This document shows, one piece after another, positions 3,363 to 53,393 of a stretch of DNA of 64,000 nt. Position numbers and translations under genes: made by a program. Numbering within the stretch: position 1 is the first letter of the stretch; every line of letters begins with the position of its first letter. The notes below the pieces were generated by a model. That model saw only the letters and a program-made list of their open reading frames with translations. It was not told the DNA's origin and did not search any database. Origin of the DNA: Halobacterium sp. CBA1126 (GTDB taxonomy: Archaea > Halobacteriota > Halobacteria > Halobacteriales > Halobacteriaceae); assembly GCF_009741975.1 (NCBI RefSeq), contig NZ_WPCF01000002.1, positions 1 through 64,000 of the forward strand. Reading direction: 5' to 3'.

Positions 3363-3388
3363 CATAAGTGTACACGAAATCCGTACCC
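3363..3388 (-). promoter_or_regulatory. Operator-like motif before the M20-ilvA operon
   Basis: On the plus strand the core reads TGTACACGAAATCCGTAC (3369-3386). It matches the motif before the gene at 5548-6180 (TGTATACAATATCCGTT) closely, including ATCCGT. The octamer GTACACGA recurs at 3392-3399. It sits 29-54 bases upstream of the start codon. The binding protein is unknown; the IclR gene at 14956-15762 is the local candidate. Confidence 0.5.
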
Positions 3389-3490
3389 GTCGTACACGAG
3401 AAGTCGAAACAATCGAACGGCGTCGGGCGGATACGCGAGTCAGGAGGAATCGGCGCCTCGAGGCTCGGTCACGAAATTACTCAGAAACTG

Positions 3491-3514
3491 TGTACGATAT
3501 GCGTATTTCCTGTG
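3491..3514 (+). promoter_or_regulatory. Weak copy of the cluster operator motif
   Basis: TGTACGATATGCGTATTTCC lies about 40 bases before the aminotransferase start. It shares the TGTA and ATATNCGTW parts of the motif seen elsewhere in the cluster but has a gap. An A+T-rich TATA-like stretch (GATAAGATATTTGG) follows, then a purine-rich GGAGAGAGG before the ATG. Confidence 0.35.
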
Positions 3515-3551
3515 GATAAGATATTTGGTGGCGTGATTCCTGGAGAGAGGT

Positions 3552-7899: not shown

Positions 7900-7953
7900 T
7901 GAGGTACACAAAAGTTTTTACAGCCAGTCGCGGAAGGTGCGAACGAGACCCGC

Positions 7954-9132
7954 ATGTCCAGAACGGTCTTCCCGAGTAGCGAGTACGACAGACGAATTGA
8001 ACGGACGAAAGCGCGGATGGCCGAGGAAGGCCTTGACGCACTGTTCGTGAGCGACCCCGCGAACATGAACTACCTCACGGGCTACGACGGCTGGTCGTTC
8101 TACGTCCACCAGGGGCTCGTCGTCCTCCCGGACCGCGACGAGCCAGTGTGGGTCGGGCGGAGCATGGACGCGAACGGGGCGCGAGCGACGACGCGGCTCG
8201 ACGAAGACAGCCTCCGGCCGTACAGCGACGACTACGTCCAGTCACCGCACGACCTCCACCCGATGGACGCCGTCGCCGACGTGCTGGAGGAGTTCGGCGT
8301 CGACGACGGCCGCATCGGGCTCGAAATGGACGCCTACTACTTCACCGCGAAGTCCTACACGCGCCTCCAGTCGAACCTCCCCGAGGCGACGTTCGAGGAC
8401 CACACGCTCCTCGTGAACTGGATCCGCATCAAGAAGACCGATGCGGAACTCGAGTACATGCGCGAGGCCGCCCGCATCTCCGAGAACGCGATGCAGGCCG
8501 GGCTGGACGCCGTCGAGGAAGGCGTCCCCGAGTACGAGGCCGCCGAGGCCATCTACTCGGCGCTCATCGACGGGACGGAGGAGTTCGGCGGCGACTACCC
8601 GTCGATCGTCCCGCTGCTGCCGTCCGGCGACCACACCGGCACCCCACACCTCACCTGGAGCGACCGCACGTTCGAAGACGGCGACCCCGTCCTCATCGAG
8701 CTCGCCGGCTGCCGCCACCGCTACCACTCCCCGCTCGCCCGGACGACGTACGTCGGCGACCCGCCCGAGGAAATCCAGGAGACCGCCGACATCGTCGTCG
8801 AGGGGATGGAGGCCGCACTCGACATCGCCGAACCCGGCGTCACCTGCGAAGCCGTCGAGCAGGCCTGGCGGGAGACCATCGCCCAGTACGGCGTCGAGAA
8901 GAAAGACCGAATCGGCTACTCCATGGGGCTCGGCTACCCCCCGGACTGGGGCGAGCACACTGCGAGCCTGCGGCCGGGCGACGAGACGGTCCTCGAGGAG
9001 AACATGACCTTCCACACCATCCCCGGCCTCTGGTTCGACGACTTCGGCGTCGAACTCAGCGAGACCTTCGTCGTCACGTCGAACGGAGCCGAACCGCTCG
9101 CCGACTTCCCGCGGAAACTGTTCACCAGCTAA
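7954..9132 (+). CDS. doeA: M24-family hydrolase of the creatinase/ectoine hydrolase type
   Basis: The product has 392 residues, matching ectoine hydrolase DoeA/EutD (about 400). It has a creatinase N-domain (about 10-160) and a pita-bread catalytic domain (about 165-385). The aspartates that hold metal in aminopeptidase P and prolidase are absent: the usual D-I-G is IELAG (248-252) and the usual S-D-x-T-R is SPLAR (259-263). This is what metal-independent creatinase and DoeA show. PHLTW carries His232, in the place of the creatinase catalytic histidine. The segment [20 protein letters not shown] (321-340) followed by [12 protein letters not shown] is the pattern I know from ectoine hydrolases. 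Its stop overlaps the start of gdhA (TAATG). Creatinase-like activity on another cyclic or guanidino compound is the main alternative. Confidence 0.75.
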
Positions 9133-10439
9133 TGACTGCATCAGACCCGACCGGAACGACGACCGACGACACGACCACCGTCGAGGACGACGCCTCGGCC
9201 GAGACGGCCGTGGCGACCGCCCGCCGGCAACTCGAACGCGCCGCCGCCCACGTCGACGTCGACCGCGGCGTCGTCGAACGGCTGAAACACCCGACGAAAC
9301 TCCAGCAGGTGTCGGTCCCGCTCCGCCGCGACGACGGGACCCTCGAAGTGTTCACCGGCTACCGCGCCCAACACGACGACGTCCGCGGCCCGTACAAGGG
9401 CGGCATCCGCTACCACCCCGAAGTCAACGCCGAGGAGTGCATCGGGCTCTCGATGTGGATGACGTGGAAGTGCGCCGTGATGGACCTGCCGTTCGGCGGC
9501 GGGAAAGGCGGCATCGCCGTCGACCCGAAGACCCTCTCCGAGGAGGAGACCGAGCGCCTCACGCGGCGCTTCGCCGAAGAGCTCCGCGACGTCGTCGGTC
9601 CGAAAAGCGACGTCCCCGCACCGGACATGGGGACCGGCCCACAGGAGATGGCGTGGTTCATGGACGCCTACTCGATGCAGCAGGGGGAAACGACGCCGGG
9701 CGTCGTCACCGGCAAACCCACGATTATCGGCGGTTCCTACGGCCGCGAAGGCGCCCCCGGTCGAAGCGTCGCCATCGTCACCCGCGAGGCGGTCGACTAC
9801 TACGACTGGGACATCGACGACGTGACAATCGCCATCCAGGGCTTCGGGAGCGTCGGCGCGAACGCCGGCCGGCTCCTCGACAACTGGGGCGCGAACGTCG
9901 TCGCGGTGTCCGACGTCGACGGCGCCATCTACGACCCGACCGGCCTCGACACCGAGAACGTGGAAGGCCACGACGAGCGCCCGGGGATGGTCTCGAGTTA
10001 CGACGCCCCGTCCTCGATGAGTAACGCGGAACTGCTCGAACTCGACGTGGACGTCCTGATTCCGTCGGCCGTCGGGAACGTCCTGACGGCGGACAACGTC
10101 GACGACGTCCGGGCGGACATGGTCGTCGAGGGCGCCAACGGGCCGACGTCGTCCGCGGCCGACGCCGTCTTCGAGGAGCGCGGCGTGCCCGTGATTCCCG
10201 ACATCCTCGCGAACGCCGGCGGCGTGACAGTGAGCTACTTCGAGTGGCTCCAGGACATCAACCGCCGGCAGTGGTCCCTCGAGCGCGTCCACGACGAACT
10301 CGAGGACGAGATGCTCAAGGCGTGGAATTCGGTCCGCGCGGAGTACGAGGACACGGAGATGACGTGGCGGGACGCGGCCATCGCGGTCGCGCTCTCGCGC
10401 ATCGGCGACGCGAAGGAGACGCGGGGCCTCTGGCCCTAA
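9132..10439 (+). CDS. gdhA: Glutamate dehydrogenase
   Basis: The product has 435 residues and catalyses reversible oxidative deamination of glutamate to 2-oxoglutarate. It has the substrate-binding KGGIRYHP (89-96), [20 protein letters not shown] (109-128) with Lys113 and the catalytic-site Lys125, [14 protein letters not shown], and the Rossmann motif [10 protein letters not shown]. The ATG shares one base with the stop of the upstream M24 gene, so it is translationally coupled. In this setting it would regenerate 2-oxoglutarate for the aminotransferases and release ammonium from the catabolised amino groups. Haloarchaea carry several paralogues, so this copy may be specialised for the cluster. 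Confidence 0.93.
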
Positions 10440-31463: not shown

Positions 31464-32402
31464 ATGCGAACGCTCCGAGACGCCGCCGCGGACGCTGACG
31501 TCCACGTCGGCGCCGCCGTCGACGTCGACGCGCTCCGGACCGACACCGACTACCGGCAGACGCTCGCCCGCGAGTTCGACGCCGTGACCGCCGAGAACGC
31601 CATGAAGTGGGGGCCGCTGGCGGACGGCGAGCGCGGCTACGACTTCGCTGACGCCGACGACGTCGTCGAGTTTGCGGACCGCCACGACATGTACGTCCGC
31701 GGGCACGCGCTCGTCTGGCACCGCATGTACCCCGAGTGGGTACGGCCGTGGACGCGGTCGGCGGCGGACGCCGACCGCCTCCTCCGGAACCACATCTACA
31801 CCGTCGCCGGCCGGTACCGCGGCCGGGTGGACGCGTGGGACGTCGTGAACGAAGCCGTCGCGGACGACGGCGGCCTCCGCGAGACGCAGTGGCTGGACGC
31901 CCTCGGCCCGGAGTACGTCGACCGCGCGTTCGAGTACGCCGCCGACGTCTCCGACGCCGACCTCTTCTACAACGACTACGGCGCCGACGGCCTCTCCGCG
32001 AAGGCCGACGAGGTGTACGACCTCGTCTCGGACCTCGTCGCGCGCGGCGTCCCCGTCGACGGCGTCGGCCTCCAGCTCCACGTCTTCGACGACCTCGTGC
32101 CGCCGGCGGACGTGGCCGCGAACGTCGAACGCCTCACCGACCTCGGCTTGGACGTCCACGTCACCGAACTCGACGTCGGCATCGGCGAGGCTGTCGCCGA
32201 CCGGGAAGCGCAGGCCCAGTACTACCACGACGTCGTCGCCGCGGCCGTCGACGCCGGCGCCGACACCGTCGTCACGTGGGGCGTGGACGACGGCCAGTCG
32301 TGGCTCCCGCCGCTCGGCCACGGCGAAGCGCCGCTGCTGTTCGACGAGGAGTTCGCGCGGAAGCCCGCCCACGGCGCCGTCGTCGACGCGCTCTCCGAGT
32401 AG
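31464..32402 (+). CDS. GH10 endo-1,4-beta-xylanase, cytosolic
   Basis: The product has 312 residues, a single GH10 barrel without signal peptide. It has TAENAMKWGP (42-51), VRGHALVWH (78-86), the acid/base glutamate in WDVVNE (Glu130) and the nucleophile in VHVTELDVG (Glu235). It would cut short xylo-oligosaccharides after import. Its stop directly abuts the stop of the convergent dehydratase-like epimerase gene. It is the first gene of a locus with GH4, GH67, GH3 and xylose-oxidation genes. Confidence 0.92.
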   Translation: MRTLRDAAADADVHVGAAVDVDALRTDTDYRQTLAREFDAVTAENAMKWGPLADGERGYDFADADDVVEFADRHDMYVRGHALVWHRMYPEWVRPWTRSAADADRLLRNHIYTVAGRYRGRVDAWDVVNEAVADDGGLRETQWLDALGPEYVDRAFEYAADVSDADLFYNDYGADGLSAKADEVYDLVSDLVARGVPVDGVGLQLHVFDDLVPPADVAANVERLTDLGLDVHVTELDVGIGEAVADREAQAQYYHDVVAAAVDAGADTVVTWGVDDGQSWLPPLGHGEAPLLFDEEFARKPAHGAVVDALSE

Positions 32403-33380: not shown

Positions 33381-34856
33381 TCAGTACGCGTCGGCGGCGG
33401 CGAGCACGTCGGACCCCTCGAGGTCCCAGTCGTCGAGGTACTCGGCCTGTGCGGCGACGAGCTCCGCGAACAGCTCCCGGGCGTCCTCGGTCTGGAGCGT
33501 GCGGACCTGCGGATCCAGCAGGAACGCCCGAAACGCGCGGTCGAGGTCGCCGTCGCGGGCCGCGTCCACGACCGTCTCGATGGTGTCGACGTGCGTGGCG
33601 AGTAGCGAGCGCACGGGCCGGGGGAACCCACCGGCGGCGAGCGGTCGGATTTCGCCGGCGGCGACGAGCGCGTTCGTCTCCACGACCGACCCGGACTCCA
33701 GCCCCTCGACCTGCCCGCGGTTCGGGAGGTTGACGTTCGTGACGAACTCCTCGCCGCCGGCGAGCGCGCCCAGCACGTCCAGCAGTACTTCGCCGGACGC
33801 TTCGAGTTCGAACTCGCGTTCGCCCGTGAGCCACGCCTCCACGTCGGTGGTCTGTTCGGACTCGGCGGGCGTCCAGTGTTTCGCGCGGAAGTCGCTGCCC
33901 GTGCGCTTGACGCCCCACCGGTTCAGTGCCTCCCTGCCGCCCTGCAGGAACCACGTCGCGTACTCGACGACGTGGCGGTCGCCCGCGAACGGGAGCACGC
34001 CGAAGTTCCGGTAGAGCTCCCACGAGACCTGCCACGGGTCGGCGAACGGGCTCTCGTCTTCGAGGTCCGCGGGCTCGAAGGTCCGGTTGCCTTCCTCCCC
34101 GTGCGCGAGGTCGTCGAGCAGCGGCCAGAGGTCCACGCCGTCGACGTACGCCTCGTCGATCCACGTGAAGTGGTTGATGCCCTTGACGTTCACCGAGACG
34201 TCCGCGCGGTCGGCGTCCATCCCGAGGTGCTCGTCGGCGAACGCCGCGAGGCGGTCGCGGGCGTGCAGGACCTCGTGGCACATCCCGACGGCGTTGATGT
34301 CTGGGTACTCGTCGTAGAGGGCGCGCGTCACGAAGTGCACGGGGTTCGTGAAGTTGAACACCCACGCGTCCGGGCAGTGTTCGCGGATGGCGGCGGCGAA
34401 ACGCCGGTAGACGGGGATGGTGCGCATCGCGCGGAAGATGCCGCCCGGGCCGATAGTCGCGGCGACGGCGCCGTAGATGCCGTACGACTCGGGGATGTCG
34501 AGGTCGTGGACGAACGTCTCCGTGGGGTCGTACTGCGTGGACAACAGGACGACGTCGGCGCCGTTGAGGGCGACTGCGAGGTCGCTGGTGGCGGTGTACG
34601 TCCACTCCGCGGTGGCGTCCTCGCGGTCCTGGACCCAGTTCCCGAACTGGGCGTTGCGCTGGGCCGCGTCGGCGTTGACGTCGTAGAGGCGTACGTCGCC
34701 GTCGAACGCGGAGAGCGCGAGGTCCTGGACGAGGTTCGGGACCCACTGGCGGCTGCCGCCGCCGACGTACGCGATGGTCACGTCGTCGCCGTCGAGTGCG
34801 TCTCCGGACGTCGCGCGCGACGCGGCGGCTGGCCGTGCACGGCTGGCTCGGTCCAT
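33381..34856 (-). CDS. GH4-family glycosidase (NAD- and metal-dependent)
   Basis: The product has 491 residues. It starts with the nucleotide-binding IAYVGGGSRQWVPNL, followed by NFTNPVHFVT, the metal-binding CHEV and GINHFTW, all typical of GH4. The family uses an oxidation-elimination mechanism with NAD+ and Mn2+ and includes alpha-glucosidases, alpha-galactosidases, 6-phospho-glycosidases and alpha-glucuronidases. With xylanases, UxaC and UxuA as neighbours, I infer an alpha-glucuronidase or alpha-galacturonidase role. It is divergent from the IclR regulator at 34965-35720. Confidence 0.88.
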   Translation of the reverse strand: MDRASRARPAAASRATSGDALDGDDVTIAYVGGGSRQWVPNLVQDLALSAFDGDVRLYDVNADAAQRNAQFGNWVQDREDATAEWTYTATSDLAVALNGADVVLLSTQYDPTETFVHDLDIPESYGIYGAVAATIGPGGIFRAMRTIPVYRRFAAAIREHCPDAWVFNFTNPVHFVTRALYDEYPDINAVGMCHEVLHARDRLAAFADEHLGMDADRADVSVNVKGINHFTWIDEAYVDGVDLWPLLDDLAHGEEGNRTFEPADLEDESPFADPWQVSWELYRNFGVLPFAGDRHVVEYATWFLQGGREALNRWGVKRTGSDFRAKHWTPAESEQTTDVEAWLTGEREFELEASGEVLLDVLGALAGGEEFVTNVNLPNRGQVEGLESGSVVETNALVAAGEIRPLAAGGFPRPVRSLLATHVDTIETVVDAARDGDLDRAFRAFLLDPQVRTLQTEDARELFAELVAAQAEYLDDWDLEGSDVLAAADAY

Positions 34857-34964: not shown

Positions 34965-35720
34965 ATGGACGCCAAACATCCGGTGCGGACGACCGAGAAG
35001 ACCCTCGCCCTGGTCGAGGAACTGATGGACCGGGGGCCCTGTGGGGTGACGGAGCTGACCGACGGCCTCGACATGGGCAAGAGCGCCGTCCACAACCACC
35101 TCACGACGCTCCGCGAGCACGGCTACGTCCTCAAGACCGGCGACGAGTACCAGCTTGGCCTGAAGTTCCTCGAGGTCGGCGGCGCGACCCGGAAGTCCAT
35201 GGAGTTCTACCAGGTCGCCGAACCCGAGGTGAAGTCGCTGGCGAACGAGACCGGCGAGCTCGCGAACCTGCTCGTCGAGGAGCAGGGGATGGGCGTCTAC
35301 CTGATGCGGTCGAAGGGCGACGAGGCCGTCGACCTCGACACGTACGCGGGGCTCCGCACGCACCTCCACACGACCGCACTGGGGAAGGCCATCCTCGCCC
35401 ACCTCCCCGAAGACCGCGTCGAGGAAATCATCGAGCGGCGCGGCCTCGAACGGAAGACCCCGCGCAGCATCGGCTCCCGCGACGAGCTGTTCGAGGTCTT
35501 GGAGGGCGTCCGCGACCGGGGGTACGCCATCGACGACGGCGAGCGCCTCGAGGGCCTGCGCTGCATCGCGGCGCCGGTGAAGGACTCCTCGGACGAAGTA
35601 CTGGGCGCCATCAGCGTCTCCGCGCCCGCGAGCCGCGTCAGCGACGAGGACCTCCACGGGGAACTCCCCGAGCGCGTGCTCAGCGCCGCGAACGTCATCG
35701 AGCTCAACATCAACTACTGA
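34965..35720 (+). CDS. IclR-family regulator of the xylan/uronate locus
   Basis: The product has 251 residues. A winged helix occupies about 5-65 ([27 protein letters not shown]) and an effector domain about 75-245 ([33 protein letters not shown]). Haloferax uses an IclR regulator, XacR, for xylose and arabinose genes, so this may be its counterpart. It lies between the GH4 gene and the glucuronate genes and is distinct from the IclR at 14956-15762. Confidence 0.9.
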
Positions 35721-36941: not shown

Positions 36942-38309
36942 CTACAGTCCGTACAGCTCCTTCGGCCGGTCGTACGCGACGTGCTCGACGAGGCGCTCGG
37001 CGTTCTCGTAGGGAATCCGCCCGCGGTCGACCATCTGCCCGACCACGTCCGCGAGCGTCCGCCGGAACATCTCGAACCGCGAGCCGTAGGAGACCAGCTT
37101 CCGGGAGTCGCTGACCATCCCAGCGTGGTTCGCCAGCAGGTCGACGGCAGCCACGCGTTCGAGCTGGTTCGCGATGCCCATCGGGCTGTCGTTGAACCAC
37201 CACGCCGGCCCGATGCTCACGTTCGGGTAGGCGCGCGCGACGACCGTCGCGCTCGGGTAGTGCGTCGGGTCGAGCGTGTAGAGGACGACCTCCATCTCGC
37301 CGTCGAAGCGGTCGAAGAAGTAGTCCAGCCCGTCCACGAGGTCGACGTCCTGCGTGGACACGTCTCCGCCCGCGTTCTTCCCGACGGTCTCGTAGAGGGA
37401 GTCCCGGTAGTCACGCACCGCGCCGACGTGGAGTTGGGTCGTCCAGCCCGCCTCGCTGTTCAGCTCGCCGACGAACTCCAGCAGGTACGCCTTCCAGTCC
37501 CGAATCTCGGCCGCCGTGAGGTCGTCGCCGCGGCGCGCCTTCGCGTACACCTCACTCGCGCGCTGCGTGCTCACCGGCCGCGAGACGGGATTCGTTCCCA
37601 GGCCGATGTCGCAGGCGACGCAGCCGTGCTCGGCGAAGTAGTCGTGGGTCTCCGCGAGCGCGTCCAGGAAGCCCGCGAAGTCGTCGATCGTCGTCTCGGT
37701 CGCGTCGTCGAGGTCCGCGACGAACTCCGTCCACGCCGCGTTCTCGACTTTCAGCGCGCGGTCGGGCCGCCACGTCGGCAGCACGTCGACGCCCTCGACT
37801 TCGGTCTCGGCGCGCTCGTGGTACCGCAGCCGGGAGGTCGGGTCGTCGCTGCTGCACAGCACTTCGACGTTCATCTCTCGCAGCACCTGCTGGGGTCGCA
37901 TCGCGTCGTCGGCGAGCTGGCGCTTCGTCTCCCGCCAGATCTCGTCGGCGGTGTCCGCGTTCAGTGGCTTCTCGATGCCGAACCGGCGCTTGAGGTCGAG
38001 GTGGACCCAGTCGTAGGTCGGGTTCCCCGCGAAGTCCGGGAACACCTCGGCGAGGGCGTCCCACTTCTCGCGGTTGCTGGCGTCCCCCGTGACCTTCTCC
38101 TCGGGGACGCCGCGCTTGCGCATCAGCTGCCAGACGTAGTGGTCGGTCGCGCCCTCGACCTCCCAGACGTCGTTCCACGGCTCGTTCTCCACGACTTCCG
38201 CGAGGTCGACGTGGTTGTGCGGGTCGACGACCGGCAGGTCCGCGATGGACTCGTAGAGGTCGACCGCGGCCTCGGAACCGAGCAGGTACTCCTCGTCGAG
38301 GAAGCTCAT
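36942..38309 (-). CDS. uxaC: Glucuronate isomerase
   Basis: The product has 455 residues, matching UxaC. It has LPVVDPHNHVDL with the amidohydrolase-type HxH, DPTHYPSATVVARAYPNVSI, WWFNDSPMG and GMVSDSRKLVSYGSR near the C-terminus. UxaC converts D-glucuronate to D-fructuronate (and galacturonate to tagaturonate), the first step of the Ashwell route. Glucuronate would come from 4-O-methylglucuronoxylan side chains cut by GH67. It lies between the SDR and mannonate dehydratase genes, all in one direction. Confidence 0.93.
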   Translation of the reverse strand: MSFLDEEYLLGSEAAVDLYESIADLPVVDPHNHVDLAEVVENEPWNDVWEVEGATDHYVWQLMRKRGVPEEKVTGDASNREKWDALAEVFPDFAGNPTYDWVHLDLKRRFGIEKPLNADTADEIWRETKRQLADDAMRPQQVLREMNVEVLCSSDDPTSRLRYHERAETEVEGVDVLPTWRPDRALKVENAAWTEFVADLDDATETTIDDFAGFLDALAETHDYFAEHGCVACDIGLGTNPVSRPVSTQRASEVYAKARRGDDLTAAEIRDWKAYLLEFVGELNSEAGWTTQLHVGAVRDYRDSLYETVGKNAGGDVSTQDVDLVDGLDYFFDRFDGEMEVVLYTLDPTHYPSATVVARAYPNVSIGPAWWFNDSPMGIANQLERVAAVDLLANHAGMVSDSRKLVSYGSRFEMFRRTLADVVGQMVDRGRIPYENAERLVEHVAYDRPKELYGL

Positions 38310-38351: not shown

Positions 38352-39304
38352 CTACGCGTCGGTCTGCTCCAGCAGTCCCTTCATGTACCCGACGGCGAAC
38401 AGCGGCCCATGTCCGTGTAGCCGGCCTGTGCGTCGTCGCGGTGGCCTTCGTCGAGCATCCGCGGCACGTGGTCGGGGCGAATCGGGCCGTCGAAGCCCAC
38501 CTCGCGGTACGCCTCCATCGCGGCGAGCATGTCCGTCGGGCCGTCGTCCTGCCACGTCTCCACGAACTCCTCGGGGGAGCCGTCGACGTCCCGGAAGTGG
38601 ACGAAGTGGATGCGGTCGCCGAACCGTCGAATCGTCTCGGGGACGTCGGCGCCCATCGCCGCGTAGTTACCCTGACAGAACGTCAGGCCGTGGTTCGGGC
38701 TGCCGTGGAGGTCCAGAATCCGCTGGACGTTCTCCACGGAGTCGACGAGCCGCGGCACCCCGCGCACCGAGTCGACGGGCGGGTCGTCGGGGTGGAGCGC
38801 GAGCTGCACGCCCGCCTCCTCGGCGACGGGCACGACCTCGTCGAGGAAGTACTCGAGGTTCGCCCAGAGCTCGTCCTCCGTGACGTCCACGGGGTAGTCG
38901 GGCGCGCGCTCGGCCTGCTCGTGGTCGTACGCGGTCGTGCGCGAGTCGCCGCGCAGCGGCACCTCGTCCGACGTTCGGAGCACGCCGACCGGGTTCTCGG
39001 TCCACACCCAGCAGTAGACGTCGATGCCCGCGCGGCCCATGTTCCGAATGAGGTCTTTGACGGTCTCGATCTCCTCGTCGCGGCCCTCGCGGCCGAGCAC
39101 CGTTTTCGTCATCGGCGGGCGGTCCTCGACGACGTCCAGCGACAGCCCGTGGTCGGCGAACCGGTTCTTGGTCTGCAGCAGGGAGTCGTACGTCCACCAC
39201 TCGTCTTCGCCCCAGAACCGCACGACTGCGGTCGAGAGGCCGAGTTGGCGCGCGAGCGTCCACCGCCGGTCGGGGTGCGGCGGGAGCATCGTCGTCGTGT
39301 CCAT
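38352..39304 (-). pseudogene. uxuA: Mannonate dehydratase with 3'-end frameshift
   Basis: Residues 1-299 from 39304 match mannonate dehydratase: an N-terminal LARQLGLSTAVVRFWGED, ALHPDDPPVDS, TFCQGNY, IHFVHFRDVDGSPEEFVE and PIRPDHVPRM. The frame then stops at 38381 after the odd tail RCSPSGT. In the next frame the expected ending, LFAVGYMKGLLEQTDA, runs to a TAG at 38352-38354. One missing base in ATGGGCCGCTGTTC (near 38413) explains both. UxuA dehydrates D-mannonate to 2-keto-3-deoxygluconate. Only the last helix is altered, so activity may persist; a sequencing error is possible. Confidence 0.82.
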
Positions 39305-39442: not shown

Positions 39443-41425
39443 ATGGCAAGAGACCTCAGCAGTTACGACAGCGGACGGCGCACGTTCCTCAAAGCACTCG
39501 GCGCCCTCGGCGCGACGGCGGCAGCGAGCCCCGCCGTCGCCGGGCAGGCCGCGGCCGACGACGCCGCGGACTACCACGAGTCGCTGCGAGCGGAACTCAC
39601 AGCATCGAGCAGGCAAGCAAAACAACTCCCCGCCGGCGAGTACGTCTACGACACCACGGAGGAAGCGACCATCGAGACGTTCTCCCTCGTGGGCGGCGGC
39701 ACGGAATCGACGATTAGCGTGGACGTCGACGCGGTCCCGCACACGGAGGCGGAGCGCTTGGACGTCCCGAGCGCCGACGATCCCGGTGCGGTCGCGTACC
39801 GCGGACCGATCACCGACCACAGCGTCACGGAGGGCGACCTGCTCCTCGGCGTCGCGTGGGTGCGAAGCGACGACGACGCGGCGGAGGCGAGCGCGCGCTT
39901 CGGCTACGTCGACAGCGACGGCGAACCGGTCGGCGAGAACTTCGTCCAGCGCGGCGCGGCCGTCGACCCGCAGGGCGAGTGGCTGCGGTACTTCTTCCCC
40001 GTCGAGGTCGGCGAGCGGCCCGACGACGCGGACGTCCCCGCGCTCGAACTCCAGGCCGGGTACGCCGACCAGACGCTCGACGTCGGCGGCGTCGCGCTGC
40101 TGGACTACAGCGGCGACGGCGTCGGCCTCGGGACGCTCCCGCCGTACGACTACGAGGGGCGCAGCGAGGACGCCGACTGGCGGCAAGCCGCCCACGAGCG
40201 CATCGAGGAACACCGCAAGACCGACGTCGAAATCGAAGTGCTGAACCCCGGCGGCCAGCCGATGGACGGCGCGACCGTCGACGTGGAGATGGTCGAACAC
40301 GAGTTCGACTTCGGGAGCGCGGTCTCCGTCGAGCACGTCGTCGGCGACACCGAGGACGACGAGATCTACCGGGAGACGTTCCTCGACCACTTCAACAAGG
40401 CCGTCGTGGAGAACGGCCTGAAGTACCCCGCGTGGGAGGGCGTCTGGGACACCGACAACGACGACACCCGGGCGACCCTCGACTGGCTGAACGAGCGGGA
40501 CGTCCCGACGCGCGGCCACTACCTCCTCTGGGAGCAAGACCAAGCATCCGGCGGCGGCGGGATGAACGTCGACCCGGACCTGCCCGCCGACGAGAAGCAG
40601 GAAGTCATCGCGGAGAAGATCGCCGACCACGCCGCCGAGTTCGAGGGCGACGTGACCGAGTGGGACATGCACAACCACCCCATCTGGCAGAGCAACTACC
40701 GCAACAACCCCGAACTCGGCTGGGACGCGGTCGAGGAGTGGTGGGCGGTCGCCGACGACACCACCGACACCGAACTGTACACCAACGAGATGGGCGCGCT
40801 CGGCGGCCAGTGGCAGCGCAGCCAGTACCTCGACTACGTCGAGCACCTCGTGGAGAACGACTACCCCATCGACGGCATCGGGTTCATGGGCCACCACCAG
40901 CAGCAGTGGGGGCAGATGCTGGACATGGACAACCTGCTCTCGGGCATCGACCAGTTCGCGGAGTTCGACCTCCCGCTGCTGGTCACCGAGTTCGACATCC
41001 AGATTCTCGACCGGCGGAACGCCCAGGACGTCGACGTGCAGGTCGACTACACCCGGGACTTCCTGACCGCGCTGTTCAGCAAGGAAGCCGTCGAGGGCGT
41101 CGTCTCGTGGGGCTTCTGGGAGGAGGACCACTGGCGGCCCTCGGGCGCGTACTACGACTCCGACTGGACGCTCCGGGAGAACGGCGAGCAGTTCCTCGAC
41201 CTCGTCTTCGACGAGTGGTGGACCGAGGAGACCGGCGAGACCGGCGACGACGGCGTCTACGCCACGCGCGGCTTCAAGGGCGACTACCGCGTCACCGCCG
41301 AGAAGGGCGCGCTCTCCGGCGAGACGACCGTCACCGTCGACGACGACGCCGACACCGTCACCGTCGAACTCACCCCGCCCGGCAGAGACGATGGGAACGG
41401 CCGAGGCGACGCTGACGGGAACTGA
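39443..41425 (+). CDS. Tat-secreted GH10 protein with altered acid/base residue
   Basis: The product has 660 residues. A twin-arginine signal (SGRRTFLKALGALGATAAA) is followed by an acidic N-terminal region (about 45-225) like a carbohydrate-binding module, then a GH10 barrel (about 285-580) and a beta-rich tail (about 605-650). The nucleophile motif LLVTEFDIQ is present (Glu516). At the acid/base position the usual W-D-x-x-N-E reads WDMHNH, so His412 replaces the glutamate; ENGLKY replaces the common ENELKW. It is probably the extracellular xylan-degrading or xylan-binding protein of the locus. Activity is uncertain. Confidence 0.85.
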   Translation: MARDLSSYDSGRRTFLKALGALGATAAASPAVAGQAAADDAADYHESLRAELTASSRQAKQLPAGEYVYDTTEEATIETFSLVGGGTESTISVDVDAVPHTEAERLDVPSADDPGAVAYRGPITDHSVTEGDLLLGVAWVRSDDDAAEASARFGYVDSDGEPVGENFVQRGAAVDPQGEWLRYFFPVEVGERPDDADVPALELQAGYADQTLDVGGVALLDYSGDGVGLGTLPPYDYEGRSEDADWRQAAHERIEEHRKTDVEIEVLNPGGQPMDGATVDVEMVEHEFDFGSAVSVEHVVGDTEDDEIYRETFLDHFNKAVVENGLKYPAWEGVWDTDNDDTRATLDWLNERDVPTRGHYLLWEQDQASGGGGMNVDPDLPADEKQEVIAEKIADHAAEFEGDVTEWDMHNHPIWQSNYRNNPELGWDAVEEWWAVADDTTDTELYTNEMGALGGQWQRSQYLDYVEHLVENDYPIDGIGFMGHHQQQWGQMLDMDNLLSGIDQFAEFDLPLLVTEFDIQILDRRNAQDVDVQVDYTRDFLTALFSKEAVEGVVSWGFWEEDHWRPSGAYYDSDWTLRENGEQFLDLVFDEWWTEETGETGDDGVYATRGFKGDYRVTAEKGALSGETTVTVDDDADTVTVELTPPGRDDGNGRGDADGN

Positions 41426-45094: not shown

Positions 45095-47293
45095 TTACCG
45101 CTCGACCGCGTCCGGGTCGGCTTTGGCGCCTTCGAGCGGTTCGCTGTCCCAGTAGGCGTGGTCCGGGTCCTCCCGGAAGCACGCCGCCTTGCCGTCGCCG
45201 CCGTCGATGTCCTGGAGCTCCGGCGTCTCCTCGCGGCACGCCTCGCGGGCGACCGGACACCGCGTGTGGAACCGGCAGCCCGACGGCGGGTCGATCGGGT
45301 CCGGCACGTCGACTTCACGCAGCGGCGGCCCCGACTCGTCCATCTCCTCGAGGTCGAGGTTCGGGGTCGCCCACCGCAGCACCTCCGTGTAGGGGTGGCG
45401 CGGGTCGTGAATGAGCCGCTCGGCGGACCCGATTTCGACGATCTCGCCGAGGTACATCACCGCGATGCGGCCGTCGCCGTGCTCGGCGAAGTACCGCGCG
45501 TTCGAGAGGTCGTGGGAGATGAACAGGAACGACGTCTCGAACTCGTCCTGCAGCTCCAGCATGAGGTCCATGATCTCGATGCGGAGCGAGACGTCGACCG
45601 CGCTGATGGCCTCGTCGGCGAGAATCGCCTCCGGGTTCATCAGCAGCGCGCGAGCGAGCGCGACGCGCTGTTTCTCCCCGCCGGAGAGCTGGTGCGGGTA
45701 GCGGTCGAGGAAGTCGTCGGCCGGCGACATCCCCACGCGTTCGAGCAGCGAGCGCATCCGCGCGCGCCGCTCCGAGCGGTCGCTGTTCGGGTGGGTGTGC
45801 CGGAGCGCCTCCGAGAGGATGTTGACCACGCGGTCGTTCGGGTTCAGCGCGCTGCCCGGGTCCTGGTGGATGATCTGGAGCGCTTGCCGAATCTCCTCGT
45901 GGGAGATGTCGCCGTTCCCGCGCTTGGCCTCCCAGATGTCCTGCCCGCGGAACTCGATGGAGCCGCCGGTGGGCTTCTGGAGGCCGATCATCGTCTTCCC
46001 GAGCGTCGTCTTCCCGCAGCCGCTCTCGCCGAGCAGGCAGACGAGGTCCTGTTCCTCGATGTCCAGGGAGACGCCGTCGACGGCGCGCACCGTGTCGGAG
46101 TCGCCGAAGAACTGCTCGACGATTCCCTGTTCTTCTTCGAAGTGGACCTCGACGTCGTTCAGCGAGAGCAGCGGCTCCTCGCCGTCGACGGACGCGGACG
46201 TCTCCCGCTCGCTCGTCGCCTCGATACCGCCGACGTCCGGGCTGTCCTCCCCGAAGTTGAGGGGGATCTCCTCGCGGGCCTCCGCCCAGTGGTGGCACGC
46301 CGAGCGGTGTTCGTTGTCGTCGTGGGAGACCAGCGGCGGGTCGTCCGTTCGGCACTCCGCCGTCGCGAGCTCACACCGCGGGTGGAACCGACACCCCGAC
46401 GGGACGTTCACCGGCGCCGGGCCTTCGCCCTCGATGGGCTGCATCTCCGACAGCGGCGCGTCCAGATTGGGTGTCGCGTTCAACAGCTTCCGCGTGTACG
46501 GGTGCGCGGAGTTCTGGATGATGTCGTCCCGCGGCCCGATCTCCGCGAACTGGAACGCGTAGATGATGGCCATGCGGTCGGCCAGCGACGCGACCAGCGG
46601 GAGGTCGTGGGTGATGAAGACGATAGTGAGGTCGTACTCCGCCTGGAGCTCCTCCAGCAGCGAGAGAATCGACCGCTGCATCAGCAGGTCGAGCGCGGCG
46701 GTCGGCTCGTCCATCACCAGCACCTCGGGGTCGAGCACCATGCTCAACGCGATGAGCGCGCGCTGCTGCATCCCCCCGGAGAGCTCGTGGGGGTAGGCGT
46801 CGAGCACGCGGTCGGGTTCGAGGTAGAGGTTCTCGAGGAGTTCGCGCGCGAACTCCAGGCCCTCGGAGACGCTCTTGTCGTGGGCCTTCAGCGTCTCCTC
46901 GAAGTGCGTCTTGACTTTCATCGTCGGGTTGAACGACGACATCGCGCCCTGGAACACCATCGACACCTCCTCCCACCGGAACTGCCGGAGCTCCTCGTCG
47001 CTGAGTTCGAGGACGTCGACGCTCTCGCCGTCCTCGGGGTGGTAGTGGATCTTCCCGCTGAGCACGCCGGGGTCCGGGATGGCGTCCATCAGCGCGGACG
47101 CGAACATCGACTTCCCGCTGCCGCTCTCCCCGACGATGCCAAGCACCTCGTGGCGGTCGATGCTGACGTTCGCGTCGTCGAGCACGTACGTGTGCCCGTC
47201 GTTGAACGTGACGTTCGTGTCCTCGACTTCGATGATGGGGTCCTCGACGGAGTGGTCCGTCGCGGGCGCCCGAGATTGATTTTCAGTACTCAT
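45095..47293 (-). CDS. ABC transporter ATPase with two fused nucleotide-binding domains (DppD-DppF type)
   Basis: The product has 732 residues, a fusion of two ATPases usually encoded separately. Domain 1 (about 18-340) has GESGSGKS, LSGGMQQR and VLVMDEPTAALD; domain 2 (about 375-715) has GESGCGKTT, LSGGEKQR and ILADEAISAVD. Each ends with the oligopeptide-type C-terminal region containing cysteines (CRFHPRCELATAEC, CRFHTRCPVAREAC). Its ATG abuts the stop of the permease gene. It powers the importer formed with the two permeases upstream. In this locus xylo-oligosaccharides are the likely cargo, although the family is named for dipeptides. Confidence 0.92.
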   Translation of the reverse strand: MSTENQSRAPATDHSVEDPIIEVEDTNVTFNDGHTYVLDDANVSIDRHEVLGIVGESGSGKSMFASALMDAIPDPGVLSGKIHYHPEDGESVDVLELSDEELRQFRWEEVSMVFQGAMSSFNPTMKVKTHFEETLKAHDKSVSEGLEFARELLENLYLEPDRVLDAYPHELSGGMQQRALIALSMVLDPEVLVMDEPTAALDLLMQRSILSLLEELQAEYDLTIVFITHDLPLVASLADRMAIIYAFQFAEIGPRDDIIQNSAHPYTRKLLNATPNLDAPLSEMQPIEGEGPAPVNVPSGCRFHPRCELATAECRTDDPPLVSHDDNEHRSACHHWAEAREEIPLNFGEDSPDVGGIEATSERETSASVDGEEPLLSLNDVEVHFEEEQGIVEQFFGDSDTVRAVDGVSLDIEEQDLVCLLGESGCGKTTLGKTMIGLQKPTGGSIEFRGQDIWEAKRGNGDISHEEIRQALQIIHQDPGSALNPNDRVVNILSEALRHTHPNSDRSERRARMRSLLERVGMSPADDFLDRYPHQLSGGEKQRVALARALLMNPEAILADEAISAVDVSLRIEIMDLMLELQDEFETSFLFISHDLSNARYFAEHGDGRIAVMYLGEIVEIGSAERLIHDPRHPYTEVLRWATPNLDLEEMDESGPPLREVDVPDPIDPPSGCRFHTRCPVAREACREETPELQDIDGGDGKAACFREDPDHAYWDSEPLEGAKADPDAVER

Positions 47294-48310
47294 TTACATC
47301 AGCCCCCCGGTCGACGAGTCGTCTGCTTCCTCGACGGACTCGGACTCCCCCGAGAAGCGGGTCCGCACGCGGGGGTTGAAGATGCGGTCCATCCCCTGAC
47401 TCAGCAGGAGGAGCCCGAAGGCGAGCCCGACGATGGCGGCGATCGGGACGAGTAGCCAGTGCACTGCCTGCATCGTGAACAGGCCCCCTTGGTAGTAGGC
47501 GTTGTTCAGTGTGACGCCCCAGTTCTGCCCGCTGTACGGCAGCACGCCGATGAAGTACAGCCCCACCGACGCGAAGATGGTGTACCGCGCGGCCTTCACG
47601 AAGTTCACCAGCACGTACGGCATGATGTTCGGGAGGATGTCCTTGCGGATAATCCGCAGGGTCCCAGTGCCCATCGTGCGCGACGCCTCGACGTAGCTGT
47701 TCTCGCGGATGGACAGCACCTGCGAGCGGATGGAGCGGCCGAGGCCCGCCCAGTAGTTGATGGTGAGCACCACGCCGAGCAACAGCGGGTTCTCCGGGCT
47801 GAGCGTGATCGCCAGCACGATGACCAGCGGCAGCCCCGGAATCGCCATGAAGAAGTCCGAGATGGTCGTGATGACGGTGTCGACCCGGCCGCCCTTGTAC
47901 CCGGAGACGGTGCCGACGAGGACGGCCAGTGTGGTCGCCCACACGCCGCCAGCGAACACCATCAGCAGGATGAACGGCGTCGAGTCGATGATGAGCGCCA
48001 GCAGGTCGATGCCGGACTGCGTCGTCCCGAGCGGGTACTTCAGCGACTGGAACGGCGGGAGCAGCCGGTGCATCGACTGGTTCGGGCTGGCGTTCCGCCA
48101 GAGGCCGAACACGTCGACCAGCGCCATGACGACGTAGAAGCTCACGATGAAGAACCCGATGCGGGTCCGCATGTCGGACCACGCGACGAGCGCGGGCTCC
48201 CGAATCGAGTGCTGGTAGATCTCCTCGAGGCGGTCGCGGAAGCCGACCTCGCCGGCCGACTCGTCCGCGCGCCAGTCGAACTCGTCGCTGCCCTCGTCCT
48301 CAGTAGGCAT
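47294..48310 (-). CDS. ABC transporter permease (DppC type)
   Basis: The product has 338 residues with an acidic N-terminal tail (WRADESAGEVGFRDRL) and about six membrane spans. The EAA-type loop reads YVEASRTMGTGTLRIIRKDI followed by LPNIMPY, which docks to the ATPase. The start at 48310 overlaps the preceding permease gene by 11 bases; an ATG at 48319 is also possible. It is part of the oligosaccharide/peptide importer operon. Confidence 0.92.
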   Translation of the reverse strand: MPTEDEGSDEFDWRADESAGEVGFRDRLEEIYQHSIREPALVAWSDMRTRIGFFIVSFYVVMALVDVFGLWRNASPNQSMHRLLPPFQSLKYPLGTTQSGIDLLALIIDSTPFILLMVFAGGVWATTLAVLVGTVSGYKGGRVDTVITTISDFFMAIPGLPLVIVLAITLSPENPLLLGVVLTINYWAGLGRSIRSQVLSIRENSYVEASRTMGTGTLRIIRKDILPNIMPYVLVNFVKAARYTIFASVGLYFIGVLPYSGQNWGVTLNNAYYQGGLFTMQAVHWLLVPIAAIVGLAFGLLLLSQGMDRIFNPRVRTRFSGESESVEEADDSSTGGLM

Positions 48311-49298
48311 CGGAATCACCCGCGCTGATGCGTGGGTCGATGAGTCCGTACGTGAGGTCGGCGATGAAGACGGCGACGACGAGTGTTACTGTAATCACGA
48401 GGAAACACCCCATCATGAGGGGGTAGTCGTTGGCGTTGACGGCGGCGATCAGGTAGTAGCCGAGTCCGGGGTACGAGAAGATCTCCTCCAGGACGACGGT
48501 GCCGCCGAGCCGGAATCCGATCTGCAGCAGCAGCCCGGTGTACATCGGGAGGATCGCGTTCTTCGCGACGTAGCTGGTCGCGATGCGGTTGTCCGAGAGG
48601 CCGCGCAGCCGCGCGACCTCGACGAACTCCTCGCCGAGCACTTGGATGCTGTTCCCGCGCATGTTGAGCGCCGTCGACCCGATGCCGCCGAGGGTGAACG
48701 ACGCGATCGGCAGCGCCGCGTGGTAGAGCACGGTCTGGATGTACGCGACCGTGAAGCCGGGCTGGACGCTGCGGGCTGCCGCGTTCCCGGTCGGGAACCA
48801 ACCCAACTGGAACGACAGGAAGAACAGGCCGATCACGGCGAAGATGTAGTACGGAATCGACATCAGGAAGATGGACGCCCCGGAGGTCACCTGGTCGAAC
48901 CAGGAGCCCTCCCAGTACGCCTGTACTGCCCCGATGAGCACGCCGAGCACGAACATCAGCACCGTGGACGTCACGACGAGGAAGACGGTCCACGGGAGCG
49001 CTCGCGCGAGCACGTTGATGACGGGTTCGCCCAGCGAGATAGACCGCCCGAGGTCGAGCTGGACGACGCCGATCATGTAGTCGATGTACTGTTGCCAGAG
49101 CGGTGCGTCCGGTCTGATGTTCTGCAGCGCCTGAATCCGGGCGTCGACCTGGTCTGCCGGAATCCCGCGCTGGAGGAGCTGTATTCGGAGCTGCGTGAAC
49201 GGTCCGCCCGGAAGGAGTCGAATCAGCCCGAACGTCAGCGTCGCTACCGCAAGTATCGTTGCGGGGATGCGGAGCGTGCGTCTGAGGTAGTAGTTCAT
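48300..49298 (-). CDS. ABC transporter permease (DppB type)
   Basis: The product has 332 residues with about six membrane spans. It has the DppB-type N-terminus (MNYYLRRTLRIPATILAVAT, RLLPGGPF), the loop EFVEVARLRGLSDNRIATSY and the C-terminal DLTYGLIDPRI. It is the first permease of the operon, 35 bases after the binding-protein gene. Confidence 0.92.
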   Translation of the reverse strand: MNYYLRRTLRIPATILAVATLTFGLIRLLPGGPFTQLRIQLLQRGIPADQVDARIQALQNIRPDAPLWQQYIDYMIGVVQLDLGRSISLGEPVINVLARALPWTVFLVVTSTVLMFVLGVLIGAVQAYWEGSWFDQVTSGASIFLMSIPYYIFAVIGLFFLSFQLGWFPTGNAAARSVQPGFTVAYIQTVLYHAALPIASFTLGGIGSTALNMRGNSIQVLGEEFVEVARLRGLSDNRIATSYVAKNAILPMYTGLLLQIGFRLGGTVVLEEIFSYPGLGYYLIAAVNANDYPLMMGCFLVITVTLVVAVFIADLTYGLIDPRISAGDSDAY

Positions 49299-49333
49299 GT
49301 TGATAAAGGTTGGAAAGGGAACCGTCGCCTAGC

Positions 49334-51121
49334 TCAGCCCTTGTACTGGAGGTCGCCCTCGTGAACCCACCAGAACTGCGGCCACTTCACCTGCCGATTC
49401 GCGTCGCCCTCCTCGGCGATGGTCCAGTCGTCGTCGGTCGTCCACGACTGCTCGAACTTCGAGACGAGGCCGAGGAACGGCAGCTCGATGTGGTTGTGCC
49501 ACGCCGCCCGCTGGACGTACTCGCGCGCCGCCTCGTCGTCGGGCTGCTTGGCGATCTGGTCGACCTCCTCGAGTGGCGTGATCGTCATCTCGCCGCCGTC
49601 GGGGCCGGGGATCGTCTGCTCGGTCTGTGCGGCCTCGCGGTAGTTGTGACCACCGCCGATCTCGTCCTCCCAGAGCTGGTACCGCAGCGGGAAGTACGGG
49701 AACGACGACCGCGACCCACCGGGCAGCCAGTACAGACTCCCCATCGAGAAGCTGCTGTTCGAGTACTGGCTGAACCAGTCGTTGGTCGGCTTCGTGCTGA
49801 TGGAGAAGTCGAAGCCGAAGTCGTTGAGCTGGCTGACGACCGTCTGGGTCATCGTCGTCCAGTCGGTCCAGCCGGCCGGCGAGTAGTAGTCGCCGCTGAT
49901 GGTGTCCCCGCTCTCGTCCTGCCACGTGCCGCCCTGCTTCTCGTAGCCGGCGTCCTCGAGGAGCTGCGTGGCGGTCTCCGTGTCCTGGGACTCGGGGCTG
50001 TACGTCTCGAAGTCGCTCTGCATGTCGTCAAGCCAGTACTCCTGGTCGCGGGGCGCGATCCCGCACGGCGTCTCCGTCACGAACTTCGAGCGCGGACCGG
50101 CGTTCTCGACGATCGACTGCCGGTCGATGACGTGGGCGGTCGCCTGCCGGACCGCGCGCTTGCCGAAGTGGCGGTCGGCGTGGTTGAACACGATGCCGTA
50201 CCCCCACTTCGCGGGAATGTTGACCTGCTCGACGTGGTCGGCGAACTGATCGACAATCTCAGGCGGACAGAACAGGCTCGGTGCGCCGTCGACGTGGTCG
50301 GCAGACATCAGCGCCTGCTGCTGAGCCGTGTTCCCACCGAAGCTCTCGATCATGAACCGGTCGAAGTTCACGTTGTCGGCGTTGTAGAACTCCGGATTGC
50401 GCTCGAACTCGAAGGCCTGCCGGTCCTTGTTGACGAACGACCACATGCCGCTGGCGACCGGATCCTCCCACGCCCAGCGGAGGAACTCGGAGGCGTCCTT
50501 GTCGAGGAACTGCTCGTGAGTCTCGACTTTCGTGTCCACGAGGAAGTTCGTCAGCTCGAACTTGACGATGCGCGGGTTCGTCGGCCCGGCGAGGTGGAGC
50601 CGGGCGGTCTTCTCGTCGACGATCTCGTAGTCCTCGAGGTACCCCCAGATCGAGCTCCCGGTCTTCTCCGCGAGCTGGAGCTAGACGTCGAAGTCCTCGG
50701 TCGTCCACTCGTCGCCGTTGTCCCACTTGAGGTCGTCGCGGAACGTCAGCGTCACTTCCTGGCCGTCGATGGTCAGGTCGCTGAGCGCGCCCAGGATGAA
50801 CTCGCTGCTGGTGAACGAGTACTTCATGAACGGCGCGAACACCGAGCGGCCGGCGGGCCACCGGTAGTTCTGAATCCCGGACGTGTTGAAGTGGAGGTCG
50901 GCCGGGTTCCCGGTGTACGCGTTCGTGTACGTCGCCTGGTGGACCGAGTCGCCGCCACTGGTCGTCCCGGAGTCCCCCGAGTCGGTCGGGTCCGAACCCC
51001 CGCTGTCGCCGCCGCTGGCACACCCCGCGAGTGCCGCTACGCCGGACGCACCGGCGACGGACAGTATTTTTCGTCGACTGACTGCGTGGTCGTATCCGTC
51101 ACTACCATCGTCTGCTGACAT
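49334..51121 (-). pseudogene. ABC substrate-binding lipoprotein (SBP family 5) with internal amber codon
   Basis: The frame spans 595 codons before its final stop and is intact apart from one TAG at 50681-50683. The N-terminal part has a Tat lipoprotein signal (SRRKILSVAGASGVAALAGC), a Ser/Gly/Asp-rich linker and the start of a family 5 binding domain, up to WTTEDFDV. After the TAG the same frame continues as LQLAEKTGSSIWGYLEDYEI and onward to GDLQYKG. So a single nonsense change (probably from CAG) splits the gene. It would capture the cargo for the adjacent importer. Loss would disable uptake unless another binding protein serves or the base is an error. Confidence 0.85.
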
Positions 51122-51323: not shown

Positions 51324-53393
51324 ATGAACGAGTACGACGACTGCTGGCTCCGATACGACCGCGTGGCCGACGACGACCGCCGCGCCGCGTACCGCCGGCG
51401 GTGCAGCCACGCGTACGTCGCAGAGAAGTCCCCCGAGTGCAGCGCGGTCCGCGACGAACTCCGGCGCGCGCTCCCCGACCTGCTCGGCCGCGACCCCCAC
51501 CTCTGGCAGCACCCGCCCGAGACAGTTGCGGGGTTCCTCGCGGTCGGCACGCCCGACGACATGGCGATGATAGCCGAGACGGTCGACGTCGACGAGGTCG
51601 AATCACTCGCGGACGGCGGCTACCTCCTGCGCTCGGTGACGTGGAACGGCGCCGACTGTCTGGTCGTCACCGCACCGACCGACCGGGGCCTCGTCTACGG
51701 CACCTTCCACCTCCTCCGCCTGCTGAGCACGCGCGACCCCATCGACGACCTCGACGTCCGCGAGGAGCCAGCCCACGAACACCGCCTCCTGAACCAGTGG
51801 GACACGCCGTTCCACCGCTCGGTCGAGCGCGGGTACGGCGGCGAGTCCATCTTCGACTGGGAGCGACTGCCGGACCTCCGCGAGCGCTACGAGGACTACG
51901 CGCGCCTGCTGGCGTCCGTCGGCGTCAACGGCGTCGTCCTGAACAACGTCAACACGACGAAGCCCCCCCGGGGGAGCGCGAACGACGCCTTCGACGCCTT
52001 CGAGGGGTGGCAGCTGCTGGAGTCCGGTCGCCTCGAAGACCTCACCGGGCTGGCGGCGACGTTCCGGCGGTACGGCATCCGGACGTACCTCTCGGTGAAC
52101 TTCGCCGCGCCGATGCTCGTCGGCGACCTCGACACCGCCGACCCCCTCGACGAGGACGTCCGCGAGTGGTGGCGCGAGAAGGCCGACGAGGTGTACGACC
52201 TGCTCCCGGACTTCGGCGGCTTCCTCGTCAAAGCCGACTCGGAGGGCCAGCCCGGCCCCTACGACTACGACCGCGACCACGTGGACGGCGCGAACGCCAT
52301 CGCACAGGCCCTCGAACCCCACGGCGGCCGCGTCTGGTGGCGCGCGTTCGTCTACGGCACCCACGAGGACCGCGCGGTCCAGGCCTACGAGACGTTCGAG
52401 CCGCTGGACGGCGAGTTCGCGGACAACGTCACCGTCCAGGTGAAGAACGGCCCCATCGACTTCCAGCCCCGCGAGCCCGTCTCGACGCTGTTCGGCGCGA
52501 TGCCCGAGACCGACCTCGGCCTCGAACTCCAGATCACCCAGGAGTACACCGGACAGGGCGTCCACGCGACCTACAACCTCCCGATGTGGAAGGAGATATT
52601 CGAGTTCGACACGCACGCGGACGGCCCGGACACGCCCGTCAGCGAGCTGTTCCGCGGGAGCGGCGAGGGCGTCGTCGGCGTCGGGAACGTCGGCGAGGAC
52701 TACAACTGGACCGGCCACTACCTCGCGCAGGCGAACCTGTACGCGTTCGGTCGCGCGGCGTGGGACCCTGACGTCGACGCGCACGCGGTGACCGAGGAGT
52801 GGGTCCGGCAGACGTTCGGCGCCGACGAAACCGTCGTCGACACGATAACCGGCATCCTGCACGACTCGTGGGAGGCCTGCATCGACTACGAGACCGGCGG
52901 ACTCGGCCTGATGCACATGATGCACAACGGCGAGGAGTACCTCGAGAACCACTACTACCCCTCGCCCGAGGAGTGGCCGGGCTACCACGGCGTCACCGAG
53001 GACGGCGTCGGCGTCGACCGCACAGAGACGGGCAGCGGGTACGCCGAGCAGTACCGCGACCCGGTCGCAGAGCGGTACGCGTCCGTCGAGGACTGCCCCG
53101 AGGAGCTCCTGCTGTTCTTCCACCACCTCCCGTGGGACCACGAACTCGAGGACGGCACGACCGTCGTCCAGCGGCTCTACGACAACTGCTTCGCCGGCGT
53201 CGAGGAAGTCCGCCGGCTCCGCGCGCGCTGGCGGGACCTCGAGGGCCGCATCGACGAGCGGCGCTTCCGCCACGTCAGCGAGCGCTTCGACGAGCAGGTC
53301 GCGCAAGCCGAGCGGTGGCGGGACGTCCTCACCGAGTACTTCTACGAGCACTCGGGCATCCCCGACGAACGGGGACGCGTGCCGGCCGAGTAG
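51324..53393 (+). CDS. aguA: GH67 alpha-glucuronidase
   Basis: The product has 689 residues without signal peptide, typical of GH67. It has TAPTDRGLVYGTFHLLRLL, RLLNQWDTPF, NGVVLNNVN, GGFLVKADSEGQPGPYDYDR with an acidic catalytic residue, WRAFVYG, VQVKNGPIDFQPREP, LELQITQEYTGQG and NLYAFGRAAWDP. GH67 removes 4-O-methyl-glucuronic acid from the non-reducing end of short xylo-oligosaccharides, so it works after GH10 cutting and import. Its product feeds UxaC, and the remaining xylose units feed XacA. Confidence 0.94.
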   Translation: MNEYDDCWLRYDRVADDDRRAAYRRRCSHAYVAEKSPECSAVRDELRRALPDLLGRDPHLWQHPPETVAGFLAVGTPDDMAMIAETVDVDEVESLADGGYLLRSVTWNGADCLVVTAPTDRGLVYGTFHLLRLLSTRDPIDDLDVREEPAHEHRLLNQWDTPFHRSVERGYGGESIFDWERLPDLRERYEDYARLLASVGVNGVVLNNVNTTKPPRGSANDAFDAFEGWQLLESGRLEDLTGLAATFRRYGIRTYLSVNFAAPMLVGDLDTADPLDEDVREWWREKADEVYDLLPDFGGFLVKADSEGQPGPYDYDRDHVDGANAIAQALEPHGGRVWWRAFVYGTHEDRAVQAYETFEPLDGEFADNVTVQVKNGPIDFQPREPVSTLFGAMPETDLGLELQITQEYTGQGVHATYNLPMWKEIFEFDTHADGPDTPVSELFRGSGEGVVGVGNVGEDYNWTGHYLAQANLYAFGRAAWDPDVDAHAVTEEWVRQTFGADETVVDTITGILHDSWEACIDYETGGLGLMHMMHNGEEYLENHYYPSPEEWPGYHGVTEDGVGVDRTETGSGYAEQYRDPVAERYASVEDCPEELLLFFHHLPWDHELEDGTTVVQRLYDNCFAGVEEVRRLRARWRDLEGRIDERRFRHVSERFDEQVAQAERWRDVLTEYFYEHSGIPDERGRVPAE

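Follow-up and report, generated by a model that had tools for sequence, protein, structure and literature searches.

The textbook picture of GH10 is of an enzyme family in which two glutamates are essential, and every member is labelled an endoxylanase by automatic annotation. The locus described here raises the question of what a secreted member of this fold does when one of the two glutamates is missing. The protein is encoded in a stretch of 64,000 nucleotides from Halobacterium sp. CBA1126 (contig NZ_WPCF01000002.1, positions 1 to 64,000; 'the window') and carries a histidine, His412, at the acid/base position. Proteins with this substitution are called NH here, after the Asn-His pair at the site, and those that keep the glutamate are called NE. 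The reading that we favour, tentatively and with somewhat less than even confidence, is that the NH protein still works as an enzyme: secreted, targeted to xylan and built on the GH10 fold, it would use His412, polarised by Glu449, as its acid/base.

The gene translates as a single uninterrupted frame of 660 residues (Table 1). Residues 283 - 568 match Pfam PF00331 (2.2e-28, 99.8 bits against a cut-off of 22.1). The Pfam TAT_signal match at the N terminus is weak and lies under its cut-off; the RR-F-L motif is common to the orthologues. The signal region is followed by a β-sandwich domain, approximately residues 62 - 236, which was modelled with a pLDDT of 83.5, and whose best Foldseek matches are 4xup (a CBM22) and 2y64 (a CBM4-2), with an E-value of 6.9e-08. 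The model of the GH10 region has a pLDDT of 89.9. Its fold is a (β/α)8 barrel of the GH10 type, the top Foldseek matches are GH10 structures, and the first of them is 7d88 (E-value 1.2e-29). The extra β-strands of the barrel are also present in 7d88 and 8b73. Strands 4, 5, 6 and 7 of the model end at His412, Glu449, Met482 and Glu516, respectively (the numbers are those of the window protein, which are the barrel-model numbers plus 40).

Table 1. Features of the xylan locus and of the NH gene, in window positions
Feature	Positions	Strand	Basis
Cytosolic GH10, no signal, both catalytic Glu present	31464..32402	+	sequence
GH4 glycosidase, candidate α-glucuronidase	33381..34790	-	
IclR-type regulator	34965..35720	+	sequence; an IclR gene is annotated at the equivalent position in Halorussus vallis
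Glucuronate isomerase UxaC	36942..38309	-	
Mannonate dehydratase UxuA, divergent from the NH gene	38381..39304	-	
NH protein (660 aa), secreted, GH10-like	39443..41425	+	translation and Pfam
Tat (twin-arginine) signal region RRTFLKALGALG	39443..39562	+	sequence
N-terminal β-sandwich domain, CBM22/CBM4-like in structure	39626..40150	+	model and Foldseek
GH10 barrel and preceding β-strands, residues 240-600	40160..41242	+	PF00331, model, Foldseek
ENGLKY, residues 323-328; E, N and K of the -2 subsite unchanged, Tyr in place of Trp	40409..40426	+	sequence
WDMHNH, residues 407-412; His412 for acid/base Glu, end of strand 4	40661..40678	+	codon and alignment
TNEMG, residues 447-451; Glu449 (usually Asp), Met450 (usually +1 Tyr/Phe), end of strand 5	40781..40795	+	alignment
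GFMGH, residues 480-484; Met482 for -1 subsite Gln, His484 kept	40880..40894	+	alignment
VTEFD, residues 514-518; strand 7, retains the nucleophile Glu516	40982..40996	+	sequence and alignment
Oligopeptide-type ABC transporter genes and SBP_bac_5 protein	45095..51121	-	candidate oligosaccharide uptake, inferred
GH67 α-glucuronidase	51324..53393	+	

A sequence-only reading of the window had proposed that the acid/base glutamate is lost from the motif WDMHNH while the nucleophile motif VTEFD is retained, and both proposals are borne out. Codon 412 is CAC (40676 - 40678), and the same codon is found in two orthologues with 85-86% identity from other genomes of the genus. Pairwise alignment places His412 on the acid/base glutamate, and Glu516 on the nucleophile, of both 7d88 and the Thermotoga enzyme XynB (1vbr). 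The acid/base position of 7d88 is the site of the E182A mutation in 7d89, which its depositors made inactive through E182A/E280A, the two positions that align with His412 and Glu516. The same reading described ENELKW as altered to ENGLKY. The change is real, but the binding residues Glu323, Asn324 and Lys327 are intact and only the Trp after them is replaced. Also kept at the -1 and -2 subsites are His359, Trp363, Asn411, His484, Trp556 and Trp564; at residue 482, Met replaces Gln. The cytosolic GH10 protein of the locus has both glutamates, in WDVVNE and VTELD, as had been claimed. The profile, the fold and the nucleophile of the window protein are thus those of GH10 and the acid/base residue is not, and because that glutamate is missing the protein is a GH10-homologous variant and not a canonical GH10 xylanase.

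Relatives of the window protein occur in 47 of the 392 genomes of the class. About twenty of these sequences, from many genera, have WDxHNHP, and the rest have WDxxNE or a similar motif with the glutamate kept. NH proteins were identified by a named-genome scan in Natrinema zhouii, Candidatus Halobonum tyrrellensis, Halocatena pleomorpha, Saliphagus infecundisoli, Halosimplex carlsbadense, H. pelagicum, Halomarina oriensis, a Salinarchaeum MAG and a Lentisphaeria MAG, and strain HArc-gm2 has three copies. Halorussus vallis has one NH gene (protein WP_253521540.1), which is plasmid-borne; it was the best match in a plasmid search. The Lentisphaeria contig is just 3.1 kb long, but it does not look to be a stray haloarchaeal contig, because the protein has a bacterial-type signal. 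Homologues are present in 58 of the 388 genomes searched in the phylum of this bacterium, and include 13 further NH proteins, which form a second branch. The substitution spans at least ten haloarchaeal genera and some bacteria. The comparison set comprises 174 aligned sequences: 40 NH (26 haloarchaeal and 14 from the Verrucomicrobiota group) and 134 NE.

Several oddities were encountered among these relatives. The NH gene of one haloarchaeal relative contains a single in-frame TGA. Three secreted haloarchaeal GH10 paralogues have EWEVHNE, in which a His stands two places ahead of the acid/base Glu; they also have GN instead of EN at the -2 subsite. A related GH10 gene on a plasmid of Haliscomenobacter hydrossis (locus positions 7914 - 9973) is annotated as two adjacent endo-1,4-β-xylanase ORFs and adjoins SusC/SusD-type genes.

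The suggestion that homologues with the N-H pair might form a clade holds in haloarchaea. When the motif column is masked, all haloarchaeal NH sequences fall into one group in the tree with a single E-to-H change. The tree that includes bacteria, calculated with columns 412, 449 and 482 masked, has two such changes overall, one on the branch leading to the haloarchaea and the Lentisphaeria protein and the other inside the Verrucomicrobiota. Joining both NH branches in one clade is not rejected by the AU test (p 0.328), and either one or two origins of the variant are possible. A broader proposal would be that a subfamily of the GH10 fold exchanged its acid/base glutamate for a His-Glu pair twice independently, once in haloarchaea and a Lentisphaeria bacterium and once in Verrucomicrobiota, that its -1 and +1 subsites changed to match, and that its members remain retaining but have new leaving-group or pH properties. 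We consider this proposal rather doubtful.

The conservation pattern divides the active site into two parts. His359, Asn448, His484, Glu516 and Trp556 are unchanged in all 40 NH sequences, Asn411 is present in 39, and Asn324 and Lys327 in 38 each. Trp328 and His392 are mostly absent from NH sequences. All 40 NH sequences have Glu at residue 449, whereas the 134 NE sequences have 106 Asp and 28 Glu. Met482 is found in 33 of the 40 NH sequences (26/26 haloarchaeal) and in 0/134 NE sequences, of which 129 have Gln. Residue 450, which by alignment is the site of the +1-subsite Tyr196 of Thermotoga XynB (subsite assignments from PMC6163442), is Tyr or Phe in 118/134 NE sequences and is not aromatic in any NH segment. 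The p values of Fisher tests on these counts are very small, but they take no account of shared descent; on the tree the associations amount to one or two events. The -1 Trp (residue 363) is lost in part of the bacterial NH branch: seven sequences have Gln in its place (RGHYLxQ) and keep Gln at 482. Overall, NH proteins have a rebuilt acid/base and leaving-group side, with most of the glycone (-2/-1) side left intact.

Decay or relaxed constraint is not the explanation of His412. Compared with four orthologues, the GH10 region has a dN/dS ratio of 0.23-0.34, and chance or relaxed decay is ruled out by the clade, by purifying selection and by the coupled sites. Catalytic residues free of constraint, the mark of a pseudo-glycosidase, were not found, as the nucleophile and its partners are invariant under the same low dN/dS. 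A conserved exchange with matching changes in its neighbours suggests an altered but working enzyme. A search for a replacement acid across all barrel columns found no new Asp or Glu specific to NH proteins of both branches except Glu449. It lies on the strand next to that of His412 in the model, where adjacency is a matter of strand order and not of distance, and the two residues are invariant together in NH proteins. The search thus yielded a candidate, but Glu449 is not restricted to the supposed dyad, since the same residue occurs in 28 sequences with an acid/base Glu.

The NH gene belongs to a locus for glucuronoxylan use (Table 1). The gene order IclR-SDR-uxaC-uxuA-NH is also found in Halorussus vallis. 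In 14 of 18 haloarchaeal NH loci a gene for GH4, UxaC, UxuA or GH67 lies within about 8 kb, compared to 6 of 20 NE loci; the Fisher p of 0.004 applies to loci that are related and to flanking stretches of somewhat unequal length, and the enrichment counts only as supporting evidence. Most bacterial NH genes have no xylan or glucuronate neighbours; apart from one UxaC and one sulfatase pair their neighbours are mostly housekeeping genes, and these neighbourhoods were dropped as a clue to the substrate. Two unrelated candidate α-glucuronidases, GH4 and GH67, share the window locus. The solute-binding protein gene (49334 - 51121) has a lone in-frame TAG at codon 146 (50681 - 50683, minus strand) in a frame that is open elsewhere, which is either a premature stop or an assembly error. 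Another genome of the genus has the cytosolic GH10 gene adjoining its NH gene split in two pieces (at about 3010 - 3650 of that relative's locus).

The window genome, which is 87% complete, has two GH10 proteins in total, the NH protein and the cytosolic one. This pairing of NH with a short cytosolic GH10 recurs in five of the 16 NH genomes, and in one other, 99% complete, the NH protein is the sole GH10. Among eight NH genomes tested, GH11 is absent from seven and GH5 and GH30 from all eight, and GH43 is present in four. In seven of the eight, the search of GH10, GH11, GH5 and GH30, which are not all of the xylanase families, gave no second candidate for a secreted xylanase.

The following mechanism can be envisaged. 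In the manner of retaining GH10 enzymes, Glu516 would attack C1 of the sugar in the -1 subsite. Unless the leaving group requires no acid, some residue has to stand in for the lost glutamate; His412, with Glu449 of the next barrel strand to polarise it, would protonate the leaving group and afterwards activate a water molecule. The rebuilt +1 site would alter the leaving group that is accepted. A retaining reaction at a xylose-like residue is expected because the nucleophile and the glycone site are conserved, and the NH protein is probably retaining with an altered leaving-group specificity. The pair of His412 and Glu449 is favoured because His412 is invariant at the acid/base position and no invariant carboxylate other than Glu449 changes with it in both branches. 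Of the options listed in the sequence-only reading, the use of another acid (His412, perhaps with Glu449) and action on a different bond, given that the changes concentrate on the leaving-group side, are both plausible. Glucuronoxylan or its oligosaccharides are, on genomic context, the most likely natural substrate, and after uptake the acidic products may be degraded further by GH67/GH4 together with the cytosolic GH10, UxaC and UxuA.

The third option of the sequence-only reading was a xylan-binding pseudo-enzyme. As an alternative to the favoured reading, the protein would then be a conserved pseudo-enzyme whose CBM-like domain and dead barrel bind xylan, as a surface anchor or targeting factor. 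The acid/base glutamate is indeed gone and the -1 Gln is altered, a CBM22/CBM4-like domain is present, and several genomes rich in GH10 paralogues also retain NE ones. A binding role, however, has no need of the nucleophile and its partners, which are kept in 40/40 sequences; most of the eight genomes checked lack another secreted xylanase of the families searched; and the coupled changes around the acid/base site resemble re-tuning. The loss that prompted this idea is thus real, but a decayed form is made less likely by the conserved nucleophile and glycone site, the dN/dS ratio and the coupled sites, and we regard a xylan-binding pseudo-enzyme as unlikely.

Plant myrosinase is a retaining enzyme that has likewise lost its acid/base. 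The NH protein might, in the same way, act on leaving groups that require little or no acid help, such as those of glycosyl esters or of aryl or lignin-type glycosides, or catalyse transglycosylation. The retention of the glycone residues fits such an activity, as does the joint change of the acid/base and the +1-subsite positions 412 and 450, and also of 482. But the histidine is invariant, with no drift to Gln, Ala or Ser, and the locus suggests ordinary glucuronoxylan, so that this possibility appears distinctly unlikely. Still less probable is that the acid/base role has passed to Glu449, whose side chain exceeds that of the usual Asp by one carbon, with His412 serving only to position it. 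In favour of this, no NH protein has any other residue at 449, and the site is on the neighbouring strand. Against it, every sequence has a carboxylate there, even where the acid/base is the normal one, and 28 sequences combine Glu at this site with a normal acid/base. A base-calling or assembly error, which the sequence-only reading had named as a possible refutation, has next to no probability even though the window comes from a 209-contig, incomplete assembly: two base changes separate CAC from GAA or GAG, and homologues, about 25 other haloarchaeal sequences with complete genomes among them, carry the same residue, which rules out a sequencing error as the source of His412.

No GH10 protein with a histidine acid/base was found in the open-access literature searched, and NH members are now annotated as endo-1,4-β-xylanases. 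Strain HArc-gm2 was reported to have seven GH10 endoxylanases (PMC9726719), three of which are of the NH type here. A widespread and conserved branch without one of the essential glutamates breaks the two-glutamate rule of GH10. If its members are active, they show the acid/base role moving onto a histidine, together with the neighbouring changes that accompany the move; if they are inactive, xylan loci contain a large and unrecognised set of pseudo-enzymes.

The closest solved relative of the window protein is XynA, a thermostable GH10 endoxylanase (7d88, 146.9 bits). Both have the same barrel, flanking β-strands and C-terminal tail. XynA, however, keeps the acid/base Glu182 (NNE) and has Asp and Gln where the window protein has Glu449 and Met482, and it lacks the additional N-terminal CBM-like domain and the Tat signal. 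Thermotoga maritima XynB (1vbr), the subsite reference for GH10, shares the nucleophile and the E, N, K and Trp of the -2 subsite; the His, Trp, Asn, His and Trp of the -1 subsite are common to the two proteins. It differs in having Glu153, Gln228 and the +1 Tyr196 in place of the His, Met and Met of the window protein. The secreted haloarchaeal NE paralogues belong to the same subfamily, often with a similar architecture and Tat export, but they have the acid/base Glu, almost all have Gln at 482, and glucuronate genes are rarer among their neighbours.

A histidine with a carboxylate partner acts as the acid in two unrelated glycosidase families, as the His302/Asp320 dyad of GH117 and the His/Asp dyad of GH3 NagZ (PMC11574756, PMC5104943). 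Those dyads were established by structure, kinetics or QM/MM, whereas the one proposed here is deduced from sequence, and GH117 is inverting, unlike the putatively retaining NH protein. The BmaN1 group of GH13 is another clade with a His at the position of a catalytic carboxylate, the third catalytic Asp, and is still active (PMC5347038); there, in a different family, the residue replaced is the transition-state stabiliser and not the acid/base.
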